Origin: Nitrososphaerota archaeon
Lineage (GTDB): Archaea; Thermoproteota; Nitrososphaeria_A; Caldarchaeales; Wolframiiraptoraceae
Direction: 5' to 3'
DNA: 35,787 nt
Assembly: GCA_021163925.1 (NCBI GenBank)
Contig: JAGGTD010000026.1
Location: 1-35,787, forward strand
Every line of letters begins with the position of its first letter. The stretch's first letter is position 1. Under the pieces are notes generated by a model. It searched no databases. It was not told where the DNA came from and worked only from the letters and a program-made list of their open reading frames with translations. A program made the position numbers and the translations under genes. Positions 14,954 to 35,787 of the stretch are shown piece after piece.

Positions 14954-15679
14954 GTGAGAGGGATCGAGATGCCCCTCGCCGCGAAGGTCTTCGAGATAAG
15001 GGTGGATACGAGCCTAGAGGAGATAGCGGATAAGCTCAGGGATTATAGGGTTGTCGATGAGCGGAGTGAGGAGGGGATGGACTTTGAGCTCGTTACCGAG
15101 GTGAGAGACCTAGATCTAAAGGATGATATGCTCGAGGGAGTCTTCAGCAGGGATAAGATAATCTTGGTAAACCAGAGGGGGAGGAGGGTTCCAATCCTGA
15201 AGACGACCGAGGCCAGAATAATCTTCAGAAGGCTTGAAGACCTAACCCTCCTAACGGTAGTCCAGGAAAAACACTTCGCGAACGCTGTCGCGTCGATCCT
15301 CTCCCACCACCTCTACCTCTCATACAAGGCATTAACCGAGGCCAGAATATCCCCTGAAGTTATGAGGGAGTTTCATGAGAGGAATCCCGAGGCGACTAAG
15401 GTGATCTATTTCGACAACCTAGACTTCCCAGCCGTCGATAAGCTAGCCCTTTACGGCGAATCTCTAAAGGACTCAGGACTCTATGAGGAGTATCTAAGCC
15501 ATGGAAACATATGGTATATCGTCTTCACGGTCACCGGGACGAATAGGGTTATGGGGTTGACTAGGAACTGCGTGGTAACCGCCTTCACGAAGATGCCCGA
15601 ATCCGAGTTCATAGAATACATCCATAAGATAGTCCATCCACTTATCCTAGAAAGCAAAAAGAGGCGTGAGAGGCCGTGA
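14954..15679 (+). CDS. Hypothetical protein, 241 aa
   Basis: Long ORF with genome-typical codon usage; no family recognised. Confidence 0.7.
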   Translation: MRGIEMPLAAKVFEIRVDTSLEEIADKLRDYRVVDERSEEGMDFELVTEVRDLDLKDDMLEGVFSRDKIILVNQRGRRVPILKTTEARIIFRRLEDLTLLTVVQEKHFANAVASILSHHLYLSYKALTEARISPEVMREFHERNPEATKVIYFDNLDFPAVDKLALYGESLKDSGLYEEYLSHGNIWYIVFTVTGTNRVMGLTRNCVVTAFTKMPESEFIEYIHKIVHPLILESKKRRERP

Positions 15680-15753
15680 AACTACAGTTTGGATTCATAC
15701 GTCCACCTAGGCGTTATTGAGCCGATGCTTCGTTAGGTACGTTATGCTTCTCT

Positions 15754-16245
15754 TCAGAACTCTACTCTCTCGACCTGCTCAACCTTGAAATGCTTCTCTA
15801 GAATATTCTTGACTAGGAAATTTACGATCTCCTCAGTCTTTCCGCTCTCCACGAGTTCGGCGAACTTCTCATCATTTATTGTTGAAGCCAGGTCTGAGAG
15901 GAATTTCATGTAGCCTTGAGTGGATTTAACGACCAATAAAAGAACTAGATCGACGGGAATTTTCTTATCAGGCTCATCCATCTTATGGAAATATAGGGTT
16001 TTTGTTGGAAACATCGCTATGAAAGCTTCCTCCAAGACATGCTCTATATCTGCATGAGGTATAGCGACTCCGATTCCCTTCTCGCTTTGAAGACCTGTTG
16101 GAAACTCTTTCTCCCTCTTTAATAGAGATTCGACATAGGTCTCTTTCACAAGACCTTTATTGTAAAGATACTGGCTTGCTCTTCTAAGCGCTTCTATGCT
16201 TTCATCGCAGTCGATGAAGGTGTAGTAGACTTTCGTAGGCTTCAC
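15754..16245 (-). CDS. PTS sugar transporter subunit IIA (mannitol/fructose/galactitol type)
   Basis: GIGVAIPHADIEHVLEEAFIAMF contains the phosphorylatable His motif; adjacent to EIIB and EIIC. Confidence 0.9.
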   Translation of the reverse strand: MKPTKVYYTFIDCDESIEALRRASQYLYNKGLVKETYVESLLKREKEFPTGLQSEKGIGVAIPHADIEHVLEEAFIAMFPTKTLYFHKMDEPDKKIPVDLVLLLVVKSTQGYMKFLSDLASTINDEKFAELVESGKTEEIVNFLVKNILEKHFKVEQVERVEF

Positions 16246-16246
16246 C

Positions 16247-16555
16247 TCAGCTCTTCTTCAAGATATCAACTATCTGCTTCTTAACCTGTTCAACCCCAAC
16301 TCCGCTTAGGAATGGCACGCCGTTGACCACGGGTATTCCTTGAACATTTACGGGGGTGGTCGTGACTATTAGATCGACTTTCCCCAACATTGATATGTAG
16401 TAGTTGATTTCAGCCGCCTTACATTGAGTTACCTCGACCTTAATCCCATTCTCTTCGGCGATCTCCTTTATCTTACTCGCGACATATGTCGCGGTAGCTA
16501 TAGCCGTCCCACAACTCACAATAACCCTTTTTACGTCACTCTCCAAGCCCGTCAC
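16247..16555 (-). CDS. PTS subunit IIB, galactitol (GatB) type
   Basis: VIVSCGTAIATATYVASKIKEIAEENGIKVEVTQCKAAEI: phospho-Cys motif of GatB-type EIIB. Confidence 0.92.
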   Translation of the reverse strand: MTGLESDVKRVIVSCGTAIATATYVASKIKEIAEENGIKVEVTQCKAAEINYYISMLGKVDLIVTTTPVNVQGIPVVNGVPFLSGVGVEQVKKQIVDILKKS

Positions 16556-16592
16556 CTCTGAAAAATAGAGAAGGTTTAGGAAGCTTTAACCT

Positions 16593-17978
16593 TTAGCCGC
16601 TCGTAGCGGCAGCTTTGGCGGCTCTCTCCTCTCTCCTTCTCTCAGCGATATATCCTATTATTATGGACACTATGATCACAGCTATTAGGGCTCCGTAAGC
16701 TAGTGGTCTCCAGCCTATCCTTCCGAGCTGAATGAGGAACCAAGTCAATGGATTCGTTCCATCACATATGCTTGAGATATACAAAGCTCCCTTCGGCAAC
16801 GGGAATCCAACGGACTTCGCGGTGGCCGTGTAGATGTCTACGATCGTGCTTCCTAGGAGCAGGCCGACGATGTTCCAGATTGCCATATTTATTATGACCT
16901 TAACGGTGTCGTAGTTGAACAGCGGAACAGTCATGCACACCATGAATGGTATGACTGGGAGATCGGCGAGGAGCAGTATCTTGTTTCCTGGTATCAGGGA
17001 TTCTGCGATGAATATCGGTATGAGGATTAGGGAAGCCGCTATGGCTACGGGATGTCCTATAGCGATCGCCGAGTCCAATCCAATGTATAGTTCTCTCTTT
17101 CCAGCGTATTTCTTGACAAATGTCTCTCTGATAGCGTCCGCTAGGGGAACCAATCCCTCCATCAAGATCCTAACCATTCTCGGCAGGATCACCATTACAG
17201 CGGCCATGCCGACCGTGGTCTTAGCCACTGTAACATAGTCGGCTCCAGCTGCAACTGATAAGGCGAACCCTATTATCGCTCCGAGAACAGGAGTTTCGCC
17301 TATCAATCCGAACCTCTTCCTAATGGTCTCGGGATCAGCTCTAATGTTCCAAAGGCTAGGGATCTTCTGAAACAGCTTCATTACTGGATAAGCCAACGCG
17401 AAGTATGGAGCTGAGAATCCATGCGGTAGAGAGATGGCTGGAGTCTGAAGCATTTCTTGAATCTTTGGAGCAGACCAGTCTGCGATCGGCAAAATGGCTA
17501 CGAACATCGCTATTCCAGCCAATAGTCCCAACCAGAAGTCTCCAGTCGCTATATACGTCAGGCTCGCGACGAACGCGAAGTGCCAATAATTCCAGACGTC
17601 AACGTCTAAGGTTCTAGTTACCCTAGCAGCTAGTAGGATCAGGTTAACGGCAACGGTTACGGGAATTATCAAAGTCCCCAAGGGCGAGCCGAAGGCGATT
17701 GCGGCGGCTGAGGGCCATCCAACGTCTATGGCCACTAGCTGGATTCCCGTTCTCTCGACAAGCATCTTAGCAACGGGAGATATCGCGTCCATGAAGTATC
17801 CTATCAACAGGTTGATTCCGACGAAACCCACGGCGATGGTTATAGCCGATCTCGCAGCTCTACCAGGCTTAACCCTGAATCCGAGAGCTATGAAGAACAA
17901 GATTATCGGAATGGCGACAGAGGCACCGAGATTTAAGAAGCCTTGAACAACTGCCGATAAAGTTTCAATCCAACCCAT
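16593..17978 (-). CDS. PTS subunit IIC, galactitol (GatC) type
   Basis: 461 aa membrane protein; VGFVGINLLIGYFMD, VDVGWPSAAAIAFGS, VDVWNYWHFAFVASLTYIATGDFW, ISLPHGFSAPYF resemble GatC. Confidence 0.93.
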   Translation of the reverse strand: MGWIETLSAVVQGFLNLGASVAIPIILFFIALGFRVKPGRAARSAITIAVGFVGINLLIGYFMDAISPVAKMLVERTGIQLVAIDVGWPSAAAIAFGSPLGTLIIPVTVAVNLILLAARVTRTLDVDVWNYWHFAFVASLTYIATGDFWLGLLAGIAMFVAILPIADWSAPKIQEMLQTPAISLPHGFSAPYFALAYPVMKLFQKIPSLWNIRADPETIRKRFGLIGETPVLGAIIGFALSVAAGADYVTVAKTTVGMAAVMVILPRMVRILMEGLVPLADAIRETFVKKYAGKRELYIGLDSAIAIGHPVAIAASLILIPIFIAESLIPGNKILLLADLPVIPFMVCMTVPLFNYDTVKVIINMAIWNIVGLLLGSTIVDIYTATAKSVGFPLPKGALYISSICDGTNPLTWFLIQLGRIGWRPLAYGALIAVIIVSIIIGYIAERRREERAAKAAATSG

Positions 17979-18175
17979 TTCTTAACCCCCTATCTCAGTT
18001 GACAGTATTTTTGTATATCGTGCCCATAGATAAATTTTTCTTTTTTAACGTCATTTCTGACATCTACCTTGAATTGTTGCCCTAAAATTGTTAATTTTTC
18101 ACTCTAAGACTACACGAATCGCCGTCTCCAATAGTCGAGATGATTGATGGCTTCTTAACCATACCTTAGTAAACG

Positions 18176-18189
18176 GGCGCAGATGCGCC
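18176..18189. promoter_or_regulatory. Perfect inverted repeat GGCGCA-GA-TGCGCC between divergent EIIC and HPr genes
   Basis: 6-bp arms, 2-nt centre, in the 268-bp AT-rich divergent intergenic region. Confidence 0.45.
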
Positions 18190-18246
18190 AAATAGTAGAT
18201 AAGGTGGAAAATCTAAATACGGGAGATTATTGAGGAGTGAACGGCG

Positions 18247-18522
18247 ATGAAGATTTTACAGGCAAGCGCCGTTTTGACGAATAAGGTTGGTTTACATGCC
18301 AGACCTGCAGCGGTATTCGTCCAAACGGCTAAGAAGTTTAAAGCCAGCCTTAAGGTCAAGAAGGGAGATAAGATCGCGGATGCCAAGAGCATTCTTGGAG
18401 TTTTATCACTCGGGGCAGAGTGCGGCGATGAGATAACCATAATCGCGGAGGGCGAGGACGCTGAAGAAGCTTTAAACACCTTGCTGACTCTTATCAAGAA
18501 CAAGTTTGGAGAGAAGGAATGA
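18247..18522 (+). CDS. ptsH: PTS phosphocarrier protein HPr
   Basis: 91 aa; GLHARPAAVFVQTAKKFKASLKV (His-15 region) and ADAKSILGVLSLGAECGDEITI (Ser-46 region). Confidence 0.95.
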   Translation: MKILQASAVLTNKVGLHARPAAVFVQTAKKFKASLKVKKGDKIADAKSILGVLSLGAECGDEITIIAEGEDAEEALNTLLTLIKNKFGEKE

Positions 18523-18530
18523 CTTTGAAA

Positions 18531-19277
18531 TTACTTCTTCCGTGAATATTCTCGTAGAACTTCTTCATCAGGCTCTATAATAACCAAGCCCCTATATCCA
18601 TCCACTATCGCCATAACACCGCTTTTCACGTTTTTCATTAAGTCTTTCACGCTCACTACCGCTGGAATCCGTAGGGCTCTCGCAACTATCGCCGCGTGAG
18701 AGGTTATCCCGCCGATTTCTGTCACGAAGGCGAGCACCTTCTTCTTATCCATTCTCGCCGTATCTGATGGGAGAAGTTCTCTAGCGAAAACTATTGAAGG
18801 CTCCTTAAGATCTAAGCCTAGCGACTGTCTCCTTCCCCTGAGATTATTGATGATCCTATTCCGGAGATCTTTGATGTCATCCGCCCTAGATCTAAAGTAC
18901 TCGCTCTCCATCGCCTCGAACATCTCCATAATCTCCTTTGAAGCTTTTTCAACAGCCCTCTCAGCCGATAAGCCGCTATCCTTGATATATTTCACTACGT
19001 TATCAGTGAACATGGGATCCTCTAAGATCATTAGATGAGCCTCAAAAATCTTTGCTTCATCCCCTCCTATCTCTCTCTCGACCTTGTCTCTGAGCTTCGC
19101 CACTTGCGTCTTAGTCTCCTCTAATGCCCTCTTAAACCTGGAAATCTCCACATCAACATCTCCTGAAAAATCCGCAACATCGAGCTCTTCATGCACACCA
19201 TATACGAATGCCTTCCCTACAGCTACTCCAGGAGAAGCTGGTAGACCTCTTAGCTTCAGCATCCCATCATCAACCAT
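18531..19277 (-). CDS. PTS Enzyme I, N-terminal (phosphohistidine, HPr-binding) half only; C-terminal PEP-binding domain absent
   Basis: 248 aa; LRGLPASPGVAVGKAFVY, EAHLMILEDPMFTDNVVKYI, FVTEIGGITSHAAIVARALRIPAVV (active His), ends DGYRGLVIIEPDEEVLREYSRKK*. The next 8 bp lead to the convergent ptsH stop. Confidence 0.93.
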   Translation of the reverse strand: MVDDGMLKLRGLPASPGVAVGKAFVYGVHEELDVADFSGDVDVEISRFKRALEETKTQVAKLRDKVEREIGGDEAKIFEAHLMILEDPMFTDNVVKYIKDSGLSAERAVEKASKEIMEMFEAMESEYFRSRADDIKDLRNRIINNLRGRRQSLGLDLKEPSIVFARELLPSDTARMDKKKVLAFVTEIGGITSHAAIVARALRIPAVVSVKDLMKNVKSGVMAIVDGYRGLVIIEPDEEVLREYSRKK

Positions 19278-19312
19278 AAGTGAGACGTATATGAATTTTA
19301 TTCTTGAACGAA

Positions 19313-19363
19313 CGGCGTCCCGAATTTCCGGTCAAAGTTTAAATTAAGCTCGGTGGGACGCCG
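19313..19363. promoter_or_regulatory. Inverted repeat CGGCGTCCC ... GGGACGCCG flanking an AT-rich TATA-like core
   Basis: Perfect 9-bp arms at 19313-19321 and 19355-19363. The 33-nt interior contains TTTAAATTAA, between the divergent EIN and winged-helix genes. Confidence 0.5.
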
Positions 19364-19988
19364 AATCGGTGCCGACGACATGGTTGATTGGGATGAATTT
19401 CTCGTCCTAAATTACCTCGATATATATGGATCCTCCTCCCAGGAAGATATTGAAGATAATGTAAAGATTGTTGGAGAGAAGATCCAAGAAATCTTAAGCG
19501 ATTTACTGAGAAGAGGATTGGTGAGAAGAGTTGATGATCGATGGGAGATAGAACATGCGGGACGAGAAGAGATGAAGAGGCTTAGACAGGAAGTATTAGA
19601 GGGCTCGGGTAGAAGAGATGAAATTATCTTATATTGCAAGGAGTTTGAGGAGCTGAATACATGGTTCAAGGATCTCGTCACTAGATGGCAAGTGAAAAAT
19701 GAAGGAGGAATGCTTGTTCCAAATGATCATAGTGATCCTGAGTATGACTTGGCGATAATCAGGGAGCTGGGCGAGCTTCATAAGAAAACGCTGAAAGTTC
19801 TTGAAAAGCTCTCTAATGTGCTTCCAATATTGAAGACGTATATTATGAGGCTTAACAGGGCGCTGAACTTGGTGAGGCGTGGAGAAATTGAATACCTGTC
19901 AGGTGTTGATGTCCAATCATATCATAACATTTGGTTTGAGCTACATGAGGGATTATTAAGGCTTTCAGGCTTGAAGAGAGTTGAGTAA
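19353..19988 (+). CDS. Winged-helix DNA-binding domain protein with uncharacterised C-terminal domain, PTS-linked putative regulator
   Basis: 211 aa (GTG 19353, alternative ATG 19380). N-terminal wHTH-like VLNYLDIYGSSSQEDIEDNVKIVGEKIQEILSDLLRRGLVRRVDDRWEIEHAG; C-terminal helical region ending QSYHNIWFELHEGLLRLSGL. Confidence 0.65.
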   Translation: MGRRIGADDMVDWDEFLVLNYLDIYGSSSQEDIEDNVKIVGEKIQEILSDLLRRGLVRRVDDRWEIEHAGREEMKRLRQEVLEGSGRRDEIILYCKEFEELNTWFKDLVTRWQVKNEGGMLVPNDHSDPEYDLAIIRELGELHKKTLKVLEKLSNVLPILKTYIMRLNRALNLVRRGEIEYLSGVDVQSYHNIWFELHEGLLRLSGLKRVE

Positions 19989-20049
19989 GATTTGATAGCT
20001 GAGCAAGTATGAATCGGCGTAACATAAATAAACGCTAAGCCGCAAAAGG

Positions 20050-20970
20050 TTGATGATGAAGGCGCGCGCCTCGGCGCCGGGTAAAGTGATTCTATTCGGA
20101 GAACACTTCGTCGTCTATGATAAGCCAGCCATCGTCTCAGCAATCGGCCTAAGAGCCTATGTAGAGGCCATGAAATCTGATCGAGGGATAATTCTCGATG
20201 GCTGGAGCGGGGAGAACCCAGCGGTCAAGGCCTCAGCCTATGTAATCGATCAACTAGGATATTCCGGCGGGCTAAATCTTAGGATAAGGTCATCAATACC
20301 TCAAAGCGTTGGTTTAGGATCATCGGCATCGGTCTCGGTTGCATCGGCGGCGGCCACATGCCTGCTACTGAGGGGAGAACTCGATCTCGAATTGATTAGA
20401 AGGGCTGCTCACCTAGGTGAGAGCTTGGTTCATTATAGGCCGTCTGGAATCGACACGACTATCGCGACCTACGGCGGAGGCGGAATCTATACGCGATCCG
20501 AGGGATTTAGGGGTATGAGCCTCAACCTAGATGAGATCTTGATAATCAACACGGGGAAGGCTAGGAGGACCGGAGACTTGGTTAGGAGGGTTAAGGAGTT
20601 TAGGGATGCTCATGGAGAGGAGTTCGAGAAGATCTTGGAAGACGCTGAAGGGATAATCTGGGAGGCGGTTGACGCTCTAAAGGCCAGAGACCTAGAGCTT
20701 ATCGGAAGACTCATGCTGAGAAACCAAGAGCTCTTGAGGAGAGTTGGGGTATCATCGAAGGAAATAGAGGAAGCAATTGAATTATGTATGAGGTCTGGGG
20801 CTCTTGGAGCGAAGCTCACGGGAGCTGGTGGAGGCGGATGCGTGATAGCGGTCGCCGAGGATGAGAAGATCCCTCAATTAATGGAGGCTTTAGGTAGAAG
20901 GTTTGAGGTCATGAGATGTGAGCTAATGGCCGAGGGTGTGAGGGAAGATTCATTTCCCGATCCCTCCTAG
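20050..20970 (+). CDS. mvk: Mevalonate kinase
   Basis: ASAPGKVILFGEHFVVYDKPAIVSAIGLR, PQSVGLGSSASVSVASAAA, GAKLTGAGGGGCVIAV (GHMP kinase motifs). Confidence 0.94.
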   Translation: MMMKARASAPGKVILFGEHFVVYDKPAIVSAIGLRAYVEAMKSDRGIILDGWSGENPAVKASAYVIDQLGYSGGLNLRIRSSIPQSVGLGSSASVSVASAAATCLLLRGELDLELIRRAAHLGESLVHYRPSGIDTTIATYGGGGIYTRSEGFRGMSLNLDEILIINTGKARRTGDLVRRVKEFRDAHGEEFEKILEDAEGIIWEAVDALKARDLELIGRLMLRNQELLRRVGVSSKEIEEAIELCMRSGALGAKLTGAGGGGCVIAVAEDEKIPQLMEALGRRFEVMRCELMAEGVREDSFPDPS

Positions 20971-29590: not shown

Positions 29591-29629
29591 TTAGTAAGAT
29601 TAATTACGTGAATTGATCAATCAAATTCG

Positions 29630-30313
29630 ATGAATCTATCCGAATACGAGCTTAGAGAAAAGCTTTTGAAGATTGCGAGGAAGTGTCTCCGATATAGGCT
29701 TATGGCGGGGACTTGGGGGAATCTGAGCGCGAGACTTGACCGTGAGAAGGTGCTGATAACTCCGAGCGGATATGAGAAGACGGCCCTTAAGCCCGAAGAC
29801 CTCCTCCTCATGGATCTCGATGGAAATATCTTGAGAGGAGATCTAAAGCCCACGATCGAGACGAGCATGCACCTCGAGATCTATAAGGCTAGAGATGATG
29901 TGAACGCGGTGATCCACACGCACTCGCCTTACGCTATGATGTTATCCGTCATAAATGAGCCTATTCCAGTCTTAACGGTCGAGTTCGCCTCAGCGGTGGG
30001 CCACGAGGTTCCCGTGACGGAACTCGCCTTACCTGGAACCAAGGATTTAGCGGATGAGGTGGTGAGGGCCCTTGGAGAGGATAAGATGGCGGTCTTGATG
30101 AGGAATCATGGAGTCGTCGCGGTTGGAGGGAGCTTAGAGGAGGCATATAATGTCGCGATCTTGGTGGAGGAGGAGTCTAGGACGTATTTCTGGGCCATGC
30201 TTCTCGGAAGAGGTGAGGTGGGTAGGATGCCGGCGGAACTTGTTGAGAGGATGAGGAGATTCTTCAGAGAGGATTATGGGCAGGAGGGGAGAATAGTCTT
30301 AGACCTCGAATGA
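29630..30313 (+). CDS. Class II aldolase/adducin family protein (L-fuculose-phosphate aldolase-like)
   Basis: MAGTWGNLSARLDREKVLITPSGYEK, VNAVIHTHSPYAMMLSV, AVLMRNHGVVAVGGSLEEAYNVAILVEEE. Confidence 0.9.
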   Translation: MNLSEYELREKLLKIARKCLRYRLMAGTWGNLSARLDREKVLITPSGYEKTALKPEDLLLMDLDGNILRGDLKPTIETSMHLEIYKARDDVNAVIHTHSPYAMMLSVINEPIPVLTVEFASAVGHEVPVTELALPGTKDLADEVVRALGEDKMAVLMRNHGVVAVGGSLEEAYNVAILVEEESRTYFWAMLLGRGEVGRMPAELVERMRRFFREDYGQEGRIVLDLE

Positions 30314-30382
30314 TGAAGGAGAATCTAACGCGATGAAAACTTATCTTAACCCACTAAACGCTATAATCGAGGTGTAATCTAA

Positions 30383-31420
30383 TTGAAGGCCGCGGTCTTC
30401 TATGGTCCTGGAGATCTGAGGGTTGAGGAGGTTGAGAAGCCGAAGCCCGGTCCGGGAGAGATCCTCGTAAAGACCTCGGTGGCCTTAACGTGTGGAACCG
30501 ATCTGAAGACTTATCTTAGAGGTTATCCATTCACGAAGCCTCCGCTGATAATGGGCCATGAGTATACTGGAGTAGTCGAGGAGGTTGGGGAGGGTGTGGA
30601 TTGGGTTAAGCCAGGAGATAGGATAGTGACGGTTAACTCCGCTCCATGCGGCTATTGCATCTACTGCAAGCTCGGCAAGCCAAATCTATGCGAGAGGCTT
30701 ATGGATCAGATAATAGGATTCACGGTCGATGGAGCTTATGCAGAATACGTTAAAGTCCCTCCAAGGGTGGCCAGATTCAACCTATACCACGTGGCTGAGG
30801 ATGTCGAGCCCGTTGAGGCGGCGCTACTCGAACCATTTTCATGCGTAGTCAGAGGCCAGAGACTGATAAAAATAGACCTCGGCGACACCGTGGCGATAAT
30901 CGGGGCAGGGCCGATAGGGTTGATGCACCTCCTCCTAGCCCAAGCCTCGGGATCCAAGAAGACCATAATCATCGATATCAGCCCAGATAGATTGAAGTTT
31001 GCGGAGAGGCTTGGAGCGGATGTCACGATAAATAATCGAGAGGAGAACGCGGTCGAGAGGGTTAGGGAGGAGACTAATGGTATCGGGGCGGATGTGGTGA
31101 TAGAGGCGGTTGGAAGGGTCGAGACATGGGAGCAGAGCCTAAGCCTAGCTAGGAGGGGTGGAAAGATACTTTTATTCGGCGGATGCCCCTCTGGAACCAA
31201 GGCATCCTTCGATACATACATGATCCACTATGGAGAACTGACGATTCAGGGATCATTCCACCTAACCCCGCAAGATGTCTTGAAGGCCATGAGGATTATA
31301 GAGTCGAAGAAGCTCCCATTGAAGAAGTTGATAACAAGGGAGGCGAGGCTGGACGAGATCGTCGAGATGTTCAACAGGATAAGGCAGGGGAAGGAGCTTA
31401 AGGTTGCGATAAGGTTCTAG
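30383..31420 (+). CDS. Zinc-dependent (sorbitol/threonine-type) alcohol dehydrogenase
   Basis: GHEYTGVVEEVGEGVDWVKPGDRI, CGYCIYCKLGKPNLC structural Zn, VAIIGAGPIGLMHLLLAQ. Confidence 0.92.
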   Translation: MKAAVFYGPGDLRVEEVEKPKPGPGEILVKTSVALTCGTDLKTYLRGYPFTKPPLIMGHEYTGVVEEVGEGVDWVKPGDRIVTVNSAPCGYCIYCKLGKPNLCERLMDQIIGFTVDGAYAEYVKVPPRVARFNLYHVAEDVEPVEAALLEPFSCVVRGQRLIKIDLGDTVAIIGAGPIGLMHLLLAQASGSKKTIIIDISPDRLKFAERLGADVTINNREENAVERVREETNGIGADVVIEAVGRVETWEQSLSLARRGGKILLFGGCPSGTKASFDTYMIHYGELTIQGSFHLTPQDVLKAMRIIESKKLPLKKLITREARLDEIVEMFNRIRQGKELKVAIRF

Positions 31421-31486
31421 AGGACTCTTTGAGGTCCTAAGGCATCTTTAGAATTCACGTGGATGGAGATGTATTTGTCAACGAGG

Positions 31487-32509
31487 TTAGGCGACTATCA
31501 TCACCTTCATGCTCTTATGGGGATCGTGTGCGATCCTGAACGCCTCGCCGATCTCGCTAAGCTTAAACCTATGGGTTATCAAGTCGCTGAACCTAACCAC
31601 CCCGCTCGATATAAGCCGTAGAGCTAGATTCGTCTCAAGCTCTGAGGTTGAGTAGCTGGTGACTATGTTTATCTCGTTTAGGAAGATGTATGAGAAGTCG
31701 AGCAGCGCCTTCTCACCCTTCTCCGGAGCTCCAAATATTAGGAGTATCCCGCCCTTCCTCAAGGTGCTTAGGGCTGTGGGCAAGGCTTTAACGGATGGGG
31801 TTGTCAGCACGGCTATATCCACACCTCTTCCATCGGTCTCCCTCTTACATGCTTCAGCGAAGTCCTCCTCTTTTGGATTTAGGGCCACATCGGCTCCAAT
31901 CCGCTTAGCGAAGTCTATCCTGAAGGGAACCAGATCTGCGGCAGCTATGAAGGATGCTCCGAAAGCTTTGAAGAGTTTTATGAAGATCGCCCCCATCGGG
32001 CCGACGCCGGTTATCGAGACGCTCATCCCCGGCTTGAAACCACTTCTCTTAACGCCCTTCAACCCACATCCAACAGGCTCGATGAAGATCGCCTCCTCAT
32101 CGCTGACATGGTCGGGTATCTTGAGGACAGCTCCCCGCTCAACGTTCACCCTGGGAACCTTGAAGTATTCCGCGAATCCACATGGGATTATTGTAGTCTT
32201 CAGGAAGAGTGGACACATGGTATAGTTTCCATGATGGCAGTAGTAGCATTTCCCACAAAAAACGTGATGATGGGCGAACACTCTCTCCCCGACTGCATAG
32301 CCTTTAGCCTTGGAATCGACTATGGTTCCGACAACCTCATGGCCCAGCATCGGAGGGGTTACGGGCTTACCATATACCTTCTCTAGATCGGTTCCACAGA
32401 TCCCACAAGCTCTCATCTTCACTAATAGCTCGTCATCATCGATCTTGGGAACCTCAACCTCCCTAAGCTCAACAACGCCACTACCTGGAGCGGAGTAAGC
32501 CGCCTTCAA
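31487..32509 (-). CDS. Zinc-binding medium-chain alcohol dehydrogenase
   Basis: CGICGTDLEKVYGKPVTPPMLGHEVVGTIV, CGKCYYCHHGNYTMC, SITGVGPMGAIFIKLFKAFGA; 4-bp overlap with the E2 gene. Confidence 0.92.
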   Translation of the reverse strand: MKAAYSAPGSGVVELREVEVPKIDDDELLVKMRACGICGTDLEKVYGKPVTPPMLGHEVVGTIVDSKAKGYAVGERVFAHHHVFCGKCYYCHHGNYTMCPLFLKTTIIPCGFAEYFKVPRVNVERGAVLKIPDHVSDEEAIFIEPVGCGLKGVKRSGFKPGMSVSITGVGPMGAIFIKLFKAFGASFIAAADLVPFRIDFAKRIGADVALNPKEEDFAEACKRETDGRGVDIAVLTTPSVKALPTALSTLRKGGILLIFGAPEKGEKALLDFSYIFLNEINIVTSYSTSELETNLALRLISSGVVRFSDLITHRFKLSEIGEAFRIAHDPHKSMKVMIVA

Positions 32510-33612
32510 GGTTCAAGCTCCTCAGGATTCTCAAGAAAGCTCTTTATGGTTTGGAGGAATCTGGCGGCTGGCGCACCATCCACCAGCCTATGGTCGAAGA
32601 CTAGGGTTAGGTGGCCGATATGCTTCAATCTAACCTCACCTTCCTCAGTTAGAAATGGTTGAGGCTTGACCGTTCCAAGCGCTAGGATCGCGGCGTCGGG
32701 CGGATTGATTATCGGGGTGAAGTAGGCTACTCCTAGAGCTCCGAGGTTTGTGACGGTGAAGCTGTGGCCCGACTGCTCGGCGACGGTTATCTCACCCCTC
32801 TTACCCCTCTCAGCGAAGCCGTCGATTATCTCGGTGAGCTCCTTCAACGTCTTCTTGTCCGCCTCCTTAATGACTGGAGCCATCAACCCCTTAGGCGTAT
32901 CGACTCCAACCGCTATGTTCACCGACTCGTGGTAGATCAGCTCATCACCCTCGAGGGTTACATTTATCTCTGGATGCTTCTTCAAGGCCAAGGCCACAGC
33001 CTTAACCGCGTATGCTGTGAACGACGGCCTACCCTTAGCCTTTCTATGCTCGAGAAGTTTGTCCGCATCAAACTCCATGGTTAAGGCGACTGGCAGAGCT
33101 TCATGGAATCCTGGGCTAAGCCTCCTAGCTATCGCCCTCCTGACCCCGGCGAATGGAACTCTCTTAACTTTTTCCTCGACGACCTCCGCCTTTGGAGAGA
33201 TCTCTGGAGCCGCGATCCCATGTTCTCTAGCATATTTGATGACATCATCCCTCGTTATCCTACCACCAGGCCCTGTCCCCTTAACCTCCTCCAAAGATAT
33301 TCCCAGCTCTCTTGCAAGCCTCCTCGCAGCTGGGCTCGCCTTTATCCTGAGCTTGGGCTTAACCTTAGCTGGGACCTCGGCCTCCTCTATTATCGCTATG
33401 GCCTCTCCAACCTTAGCGATCTCACCAGCTTTCTTTAGGATTTTGACGAGCTTGCCCGTGTATGGCGACTCAACCTCGAATGTCGTCTTCTCACCCTCAA
33501 CCACCAAAACGGCCTCCCCCTTACTCACATCCTCGCCCTCCTTCTTCAACCACTCAACTATTCTACCCTCCTCCATCACTGGGTCGAGTCTAGGCATCTT
33601 GAGCTCGGCCAT
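32506..33612 (-). CDS. 2-oxoacid dehydrogenase dihydrolipoamide acyltransferase (E2)
   Basis: Lipoyl domain VVEGEKTTFEVESPYTGKLVKIL, E3/E1-binding SPAARRLARELGISLEEVKGTGPGGRITRDDV, catalytic LVFDHRLVDGAPAARFL. Confidence 0.95.
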   Translation of the reverse strand: MAELKMPRLDPVMEEGRIVEWLKKEGEDVSKGEAVLVVEGEKTTFEVESPYTGKLVKILKKAGEIAKVGEAIAIIEEAEVPAKVKPKLRIKASPAARRLARELGISLEEVKGTGPGGRITRDDVIKYAREHGIAAPEISPKAEVVEEKVKRVPFAGVRRAIARRLSPGFHEALPVALTMEFDADKLLEHRKAKGRPSFTAYAVKAVALALKKHPEINVTLEGDELIYHESVNIAVGVDTPKGLMAPVIKEADKKTLKELTEIIDGFAERGKRGEITVAEQSGHSFTVTNLGALGVAYFTPIINPPDAAILALGTVKPQPFLTEEGEVRLKHIGHLTLVFDHRLVDGAPAARFLQTIKSFLENPEELEP

Positions 33613-33613
33613 C

Positions 33614-34600
33614 TCACTCCACCAACCCCTTAACCGCCTTAACTATCTTATCGGCGTCGACCATATACTGTTTCTCAAGCTGTGGTGAGAACGGTATCGG
33701 TAGCGGCGGAGAGTTCACCCTAATTATCGGAGCATCTAGATAGTCGAAGGCGAACTCGCTGATATATGCTGAGACCTCGGCCGATATGCCGCATGTCTTG
33801 ACGCTGTCATCCGCTATGACCAGCCTATTCGTCTTCATGACGGATTTAACGATGGTGTCATAGTCCATTGGCTGGATGGTCATTAAGTCTATCACCTCTG
33901 CGCTTATACCCTCCTCCGCCAATCTATCGGCGGCCTTCAAAGCCTCGACAACGGTTCTAGCAACGGCGACTATCGTCACATCATCTCCCTCACGCTTAAC
34001 ATCACACTTACCCAAGGGTATCAGATACTCGTCTTCTGGAACCGGTCCCTTCAACCTATAGAGGACTCCAGACTCTATGAAGAGGACTGGATCATCATCC
34101 CTAATAGCTGACTTCAACAACCCCTTCGCATCCCTCGGGGTTCCGGGCAAGACCACCTTTATCCCAGGTGATTGGAGGAAGCACGCGGCCAAGAATTGGC
34201 TGTGCTGGCATCCATGAGCTCTTCCCAAGCTATATTGTGATCTTATAACCATTGGAAGCTTCACCTGTCCACCGCTCATGAACCTCGTTTTCGCGGCATG
34301 GGTTATGATCATGTCGGTTGCGATGGTTAGGAAGTCGACATACATTATCTCGGCCACTGGTCTAAGCCCCATCAAGGCGGCTCCTATCGCTGTCCCAGCT
34401 ATCGCGGCCTCCGAGATCGGCGTATCCAAGACCCTCTCAGGCCCAAACTCCTCCAATAATCCCTTAGTCACCCTATAGACTCCTCCAAGGACTCCCACAT
34501 CTTCTCCGAAGACTATCACCCTATCATCTCTCCTCATCTCCTCTTTCAGCGCCTCGTTCAGCGCCTCGGCATAGCTTAGCTCCCTAACGCCACTCTCCAT
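33614..34600 (-). CDS. 2-oxoacid dehydrogenase E1 beta subunit
   Basis: LSYAEALNEALKEEMRRDDRVIVFGEDVGVLGGVYRVTKGL...DTPISEAAIAGTAIGAALMGLRPVAEIMYVDF. ORF extends to 34621; ATG at 34600 chosen. Confidence 0.95.
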   Translation of the reverse strand: MESGVRELSYAEALNEALKEEMRRDDRVIVFGEDVGVLGGVYRVTKGLLEEFGPERVLDTPISEAAIAGTAIGAALMGLRPVAEIMYVDFLTIATDMIITHAAKTRFMSGGQVKLPMVIRSQYSLGRAHGCQHSQFLAACFLQSPGIKVVLPGTPRDAKGLLKSAIRDDDPVLFIESGVLYRLKGPVPEDEYLIPLGKCDVKREGDDVTIVAVARTVVEALKAADRLAEEGISAEVIDLMTIQPMDYDTIVKSVMKTNRLVIADDSVKTCGISAEVSAYISEFAFDYLDAPIIRVNSPPLPIPFSPQLEKQYMVDADKIVKAVKGLVE

Positions 34601-35636
34601 ATCTCGCACCCCCGCTAACATAGAGGTAATCCCATAGCTCGTCGAATGGCATGACCGGAGCCTCTTCAGCCTCCTTAACCGCCTCCTCTAGAGTCGAGGC
34701 TATCTCCTCATCCCATCTCCTAAACTCGTCTTCAGAGATTATCCCGAGGCTCTTGAGCTTCTTGAAGAACCTATCTATGGGATCCCTCTTCATCCAGAAC
34801 TCGACCTCATCCTTCGGCCTATACCAAGCCGTATCATAGACCCCATGCCCCTTCTTCCTATAGGTCCTACACTCGATGAACGCAGGCCCATTACCCGATC
34901 GAATATGCTCAACCGCCTTACTGGCCGCATAGTAGACCGCGACCACATCATTCCCATCCTCGACGAGGAACGATCTTATCCCATAACATGCCCCTCTAGC
35001 CGCTATACTCTCACCAGCAAACGACTTCCTATGCGGAACAGATAACGCATATTGATTATTCTCGCATACGAATAGTATTGGTAGCTTCCAGACCGCCGCC
35101 AAATTAACTCCTTCATTAAATGCTCCGGTGTTCGCCGCCCCATCCCCGAAGAAGACGGCCGCTATCCTATCCTCCTTCCTATACTTCAAGGCCAATCCAA
35201 CTCCACAGGCTATCGGTATACCGCTCCCAACGATCGCGGTGGCCATCGGGATATTGTGCTCGACGCTTAGGGCTGAATGCATGCTCCCACTCAACCCCTT
35301 ACAGGTTCCCGTGATCTTCCCGAAGAGCTCGGCCATCAAAGCCTTCATCGAGACTCCTCTAGCGATCGCATGGCCATGGCCCCTATAGGTAGAGACTATA
35401 ACGTCATCCTCTCTAAGAGCTTTTATAACCCCGACCGCAATCGCCTCTTCACCGAGATAAAGGTGCGCAGGCCCTATAAGCTTCCCCTCCACCAAGAACA
35501 ATCTCTCAACCATCTCCTCAAATCTCCTAGCCTCAAGCATCTTCCTAAGCATCCATCTAAGCCTTTCATCAGTGAGCCCGAGCTCACGATACTTATTGAC
35601 AGGCACCTCCTCAATGACTTCGATCAACGGATCCAT
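34584..35636 (-). CDS. 2-oxoacid dehydrogenase E1 alpha subunit
   Basis: LLEARRFEEMVERLF-type start, TPP motif GDGAANTGAFNEGVNLAAVWKLPILFVCENNQYALS, YRKKGHGVYD. ORF extends to 35705; ATG at 35636 is plausible. Confidence 0.94.
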   Translation of the reverse strand: MDPLIEVIEEVPVNKYRELGLTDERLRWMLRKMLEARRFEEMVERLFLVEGKLIGPAHLYLGEEAIAVGVIKALREDDVIVSTYRGHGHAIARGVSMKALMAELFGKITGTCKGLSGSMHSALSVEHNIPMATAIVGSGIPIACGVGLALKYRKEDRIAAVFFGDGAANTGAFNEGVNLAAVWKLPILFVCENNQYALSVPHRKSFAGESIAARGACYGIRSFLVEDGNDVVAVYYAASKAVEHIRSGNGPAFIECRTYRKKGHGVYDTAWYRPKDEVEFWMKRDPIDRFFKKLKSLGIISEDEFRRWDEEIASTLEEAVKEAEEAPVMPFDELWDYLYVSGGARYGEWR

Positions 35637-35787
35637 GGCGATAATAATCATGAAAAGGGATGGTAATAACTTATTCTTTTCTTTCACTTGATCGCTTTGC
35701 GACATGTAATTCTATTTTAAATTCATCGAAACTACCGTATGCGCGACCTTAAATATCTGAAAGCGGCGGGCTCAATAAATAACATGA

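Follow-up and report, generated by a model that had tools for sequence, protein, structure and literature searches.

A probably horizontally gained galactitol-type phosphotransferase system with Enzyme I reduced to its N-terminal half in a Nitrososphaerota archaeon

Characterised sugar phosphotransferase systems (PTSs) draw on phosphoenolpyruvate (PEP), for which Enzyme I (EI) provides the binding site in its C-terminal domain; the isolated N-terminal half of the E. coli enzyme (EIN) swaps phosphate with HPr, and PEP does not charge it. In E. coli, EIN corresponds to residues 1–249 and carries the phosphorylation site along with the HPr-binding site, the PEP being bound by the C-terminal half, EI-C (PMC8295985). 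A stretch of 35,787 nucleotides from a Nitrososphaerota archaeon (hereafter, the window) encodes a PTS whose EI consists of EIN only. Since the half taking phosphate from PEP is missing from this protein, the relay would have to be charged by some other protein, and an earlier note on this DNA, made from the sequence alone, was right to look for the donor elsewhere.

The truncation itself is clear-cut. Over its 248 residues, the EIN frame matches the Pfam domains PEP-utilisers_N (121/121 positions) and PEP-utilizers (positions 2–72 of 72), and PEP-utilizers_C is absent from it; the full-length EI profile TIGR01417 aligns with positions 2–242 of 565 only, scoring 212 bits, below its cut-off of 341.7 bits. 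Hence, the chain has the helical HPr-binding domain and the swivel domain with the active-site residue, His194, inside the GGITSHA motif, but no PEP-binding barrel follows at its C-terminus; the same holds for a sister species. Aligned with full-length archaeal EIs, E. coli EI and Thermoanaerobacter EIN, it terminates at a domain boundary, the start of the EIN–EI-C linker helix. The AlphaFold model (pLDDT 87) matches solved EI and EIN structures (2wqd, TM 0.90; 1zym, TM 0.84). The stop codon lies 8 bp from that of the convergent HPr gene, as the earlier note described, with the same spacing in the sister species. A possible relaxation of the EI-C-facing surface was looked for in the sequence alignment: of 48 positions that do not vary among five EIs, 7 are altered in the island protein, the corresponding counts being 1–6 of 42–47 for four of these EIs and, for the E. 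coli enzyme, 19 of 60. Loss of the arginine in GGRTSH was rejected as a hallmark of the EIN-only form, since GGVTSH or GGITSH also occurs in full-length archaeal EIs.

Features of the PTS island (positions in the window)
Feature	Positions	Strand	Basis or remark
Discrete PTS island, ~4.4 kb	15680..20049		flanking genes near-adjacent in sister genus g2
EIIA, galactitol-like, 163 aa, IPHAD site	15754..16245	-	Pfam and NCBIfam
EIIB, galactitol-like, 102 aa, SCGTA site	16247..16555	-	Pfam and NCBIfam
EIIC, galactitol-type permease, 461 aa	16593..17978	-	Pfam and NCBIfam
HPr, 91 aa, single copy in genome	18247..18522	+	domain match
EIN-only Enzyme I, 248 aa	18531..19277	-	helical HPr-binding domain and phosphohistidine swivel domain
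Winged-helix protein, 202–211 aa	19353..19988, start probably 19380	+	divergent from EIN; family near barrel-less swivel proteins

The remaining components of the relay are present. HPr, EIIA, EIIB and EIIC are complete and retain their phosphorylation sites, and the open reading frame translations contain the motifs listed by the earlier note, i.e., GGITSHA in EIN, GLHARPA in HPr, IPHAD in EIIA and SCGTA in EIIB. The transporter comprises an EIIC-GAT permease with galactitol-like EIIB and EIIA; these assignments exceed the Pfam cut-offs, fall below the NCBIfam galactitol equivalog cut-offs and do not imply galactitol as the substrate. The five PTS genes and a sixth one, coding for a winged-helix protein, lie between flanks (14954–15679 and 20050–20970) which are just 14–35 bp apart in the sister genus g2, so the block in this genus (g1) represents a discrete gained island. 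While the earlier reading of an EIN-only EI with intact motifs and an external donor stands, it overlooked this island and its sixth gene. The full-length EIs closest to the island EIN (G390, G253 and G238) share 49–54% identity with it, the upper value being that for the archaeal G390 EI compared over its EIN portion; the closest EIIC (64.5%) comes from G166, from a locus with a full-length EI. Judging by these relatives, the island EIN likely descends from a full-length ancestor, and the whole is best described as a probably horizontally gained galactitol-type PTS with EI reduced to EIN.

Several features of the surroundings deserve separate mention. Further along the window (29612–35711), an E2/E1 set for a lipoyl 2-oxoacid dehydrogenase is encoded together with a Class II aldolase and a pair of zinc alcohol dehydrogenases; the close EIIC homologue of G166 (L044) likewise has 2-oxoacid dehydrogenase genes next to it, hinting at a common sugar pathway. 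A tie between the PTS and these dehydrogenase and aldolase genes was judged weak, the E2 gene being found in the EI-less genome G003 as well. Orthologues of the protein encoded at 14954 carry one in-frame TAG each in two sister-genus genomes (G012:C12:13689-14387, L065; G009:C4:81228-81926, L067).

Just one further genome of this genus was found, G001 (contig L006; MAG Thaumarchaeota archaeon isolate AUK008), a draft like that of the window; it encodes the same 248-aa EIN with the same stop and gene order. At 84% protein identity, it represents a different species. The identical length, stop and synteny in an independent genome show that the truncation is neither a chance event nor a broken read; the intact EI of ~570 aa which, according to the earlier note, would expose a misassembly is not there. 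Most simply, the truncation would predate the split of the two species. The dN/dS ratios between them amount to 0.125 for EIN, 0.017 for HPr, 0.055 for EIIA, 0.064 for EIIB and 0.061 for EIIC, with 0.112 for the winged-helix gene and 0.03–0.08 for other neighbouring genes. At the level of coding sequences, this shows that each of the five PTS proteins is under purifying selection in the two species, and we infer that such selection has acted on EIN since their separation. The possibility of a decaying, non-functional PTS draws on the loss of EI-C and on the EIN ratio, the highest of the genes compared; since selection is evident on all five proteins and all phosphorylation motifs are kept in both species, it retains only the faintest credence, and the impression of an undecayed relay, formed earlier from one genome, holds for two.

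Such a reduction of EI is seemingly rare. A profile search detected PEP-utilisers_N in 19 of the 398 genomes of the phylum: 15 of these possess full-length EIs (open frames of 574–615 aa), two harbour fragments at contig ends and two, both of this genus, have EIN only. The profile can miss divergent EIs, as exemplified by that of G045, which it did not report. None of the other apparently truncated or split cases held: the fragments of G271 and G384 stop at contig edges, and the G045 frame, with its 570 aa, is ordinary. Thus, the survey of related archaea proposed in the earlier note yielded one further case with the same layout, G001, full-length EI being otherwise the rule. Tests for HPr in further genomes were positive for all nine with an EI and negative for all five family members without one. 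In the open-access literature, no report of an EIN-only archaeal PTS was found.

One explanation, a split EI with EI-C encoded elsewhere, gained no support. In each of the two drafts (81% and 88% complete), PEP-utilizers_C (PF02896) is found in a single protein, a PEP synthase (PpsA) of 817–818 aa, and EI-C of the closest full-length archaeal EI used as a query retrieved PpsA as the sole match at E<=10. Neither a stand-alone EI-C nor a second EI, the latter having been named earlier as grounds for dismissing the case, was found in either draft. One could still argue, in view of the incomplete assemblies, that both genomes have EI-C or a complete second EI in a portion that was not assembled. 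The chance of its being missed by both drafts is estimated from their completeness as ~2% if the two are independent; moreover, HPr is a single-copy gene and the region surrounding the locus is intact across more than 15 kb, which makes this explanation highly improbable.

PpsA, which combines a PEP barrel with a swivel domain as no other protein found does, is, therefore, the first candidate to consider as the donor; in the genome of the window (G000), swivel domains are confined to PpsA and EIN. It might phosphorylate the EIN histidine in trans, either through its PEP/pyruvate barrel with PEP or through its ATP-grasp domain with ATP, whereupon phosphate would pass from EIN to HPr, EIIA and EIIB and eventually to the sugar carried by EIIC. 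At the same time, ppsA is located on a different contig from the PTS island. The g1 PpsA looked divergent beside that of g4, but g2 and g3, two sister genera in which the search for an EI gave nothing, have the same unusual barrel, so a special adaptation of PpsA to the PTS was ruled out. The earlier suggestion of a PpsA-type donor thus survives in that no PEP-barrel protein besides PpsA was found, and fails to gain from the PpsA barrel, which bears no PTS-specific change. Charging of EIN by PpsA within a working PTS is accordingly put forward tentatively, with a chance somewhat short of even. As a side observation, the g4 and g5 PpsA proteins share 66–69% identity in the barrel and 44% in the ATP-grasp part, compared with 55% and 57%, respectively, between g4 and g1 (L001, L012-L016, L035, L053-L061); PpsA genes of the family look like a domain mosaic, and the barrel may have moved between PpsA lineages.

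The sixth gene of the island broadens the range of conceivable donors. Its product, a member of a family as yet without a name, has an N-terminal winged-helix domain of MarR/TrmB-like fold, although the Pfam scan gave only a sub-threshold TrmB match and the fold search only weak MarR/PadR-like ones (E>0.01). Relatives were retrieved by tblastn from plasmids of Rhodococcus, Mycobacterium, Streptomyces, Diaphorobacter and others; no member turned up in the other archaeal stretches inspected, those around full-length EIs among them. All 18 bacterial loci inspected (plasmid records only, with a few near-duplicates) have a swivel (PEP-utilizers) gene no more than ~3 kb from the family gene, and in most of them the neighbour is a ‘pyruvate, phosphate dikinase’ of ~460–580 aa. 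Six of these neighbours were scanned with Pfam, and all six contain PPDK_N and the swivel without the PEP barrel. Several of the gene pairs overlap by 4–8 bp, and two loci show fusions of the family domain, one with a PEP-utilizing protein and the other with an AMP-binding protein. The family is also hallmarked by a C-terminal motif (WQ and S-x-H-x-V/I-WFE-x-H-E), which the island protein possesses. The overlaps and fusions favour a role as a subunit, the divergent arrangement with EIN that of a regulator; hence, the protein might dock EIN to its donor, or sense EIN phosphorylation and control the island promoters. The bacterial members (L098-L115), annotated as MarR, ‘transcriptional regulator’ or hypothetical, occur near PPDK_N-swivel proteins and small stand-alone swivel proteins (122–238 aa), and their loci look like undescribed multi-component dikinases.

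These associations bear on two further explanations. According to one of them, EIN is charged from ATP in trans by a donor other than PpsA, e.g., acetate kinase or another kinase, or an ATP-grasp protein that stands alone; the winged-helix protein would assist, in the manner of two-component dikinases. The company kept by the bacterial relatives, mostly PPDK_N (ATP-grasp) and swivel proteins, is in line with this, as is HpeHI, where the swivel histidine receives its phosphate from an ATP-grasp protein that is a different polypeptide (PMC12167813), a precedent for the charging of a swivel in trans in general. Still, the island showed no ATP-grasp gene, and G000 no swivel-bearing barrel-less dikinase; this route appears unlikely, if worth keeping in mind.

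The other explanation denies EIN the role of the entry point: HPr would be charged elsewhere or the relay reversed, and EIN would store phosphate or carry a signal for the winged-helix regulator to read. The divergent transcription of the two genes, the MarR/TrmB-like fold and the precedent of DhaM, with its EIN devoid of EI-C, all fit such a role. Against it, we know of no HPr donor other than EI, the acceptor DhaL is absent, and the permease with EIIA and EIIB is intact and constrained, as befits transport; this reading, too, seems doubtful.

Overall, a relay charged in trans, in which EIN would receive phosphate from PpsA (using either PEP or ATP) or from some other ATP-grasp donor, with a partner whose relatives go together with barrel-less dikinases, has a slightly better than even chance of being correct; it would be a hybrid of a PTS and a two-component dikinase. 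A conserved, selected PTS without EI-C would mean that the relay can be fed from central metabolism or from ATP via another enzyme, and it would show how a transferred PTS becomes wired into an archaeal cell already holding a PEP synthase.

With canonical PtsI (TIGR01417) and galactitol-type EIIABC, the island shares the EIN fold, the swivel histidine motif and the set of HPr, EIIA, EIIB and EIIC; the canonical enzyme, however, includes the PEP-binding and dimerisation EI-C, which is missing from the island protein and, save for PpsA, was found in neither draft. DhaM, the component of the PTS-dependent dihydroxyacetone kinase in which EIIA, HPr and EIN are fused, likewise has EIN without EI-C, but the island EIN is unfused and accompanied by a sugar permease. 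With no EIIA-Man/HPr fusion and no DhaL in either draft genome, a DhaM-type use was ruled out, in accord with the distinction drawn earlier. Elsewhere in the phylum, an HPr gene lies ~1.4 kb from a DhaL (Dak2) gene, with EI on another contig (G253:C64:14043-16253, L047), possibly an archaeal PTS-dependent dihydroxyacetone kinase.

In the two-component dikinases (HpeHI, CreHI and the phenylphosphate synthase PpsAB), the swivel also resides on a chain without a phosphate-donor domain and is charged in trans (PMC12167813); these enzymes have a small-molecule site, in place of which the island EIN has the HPr-binding helical domain. The bacterial plasmid PPDK_N-swivel loci (Rhodococcus, Mycobacterium, Streptomyces and others), on the function of which no report was found in the literature, contain an ATP-grasp domain and catabolic genes and no HPr or EII proteins, but in them, as in the island, a homologous winged-helix partner stands beside a barrel-less swivel protein, making this partner family a handle on the poorly described barrel-less swivel kinases.
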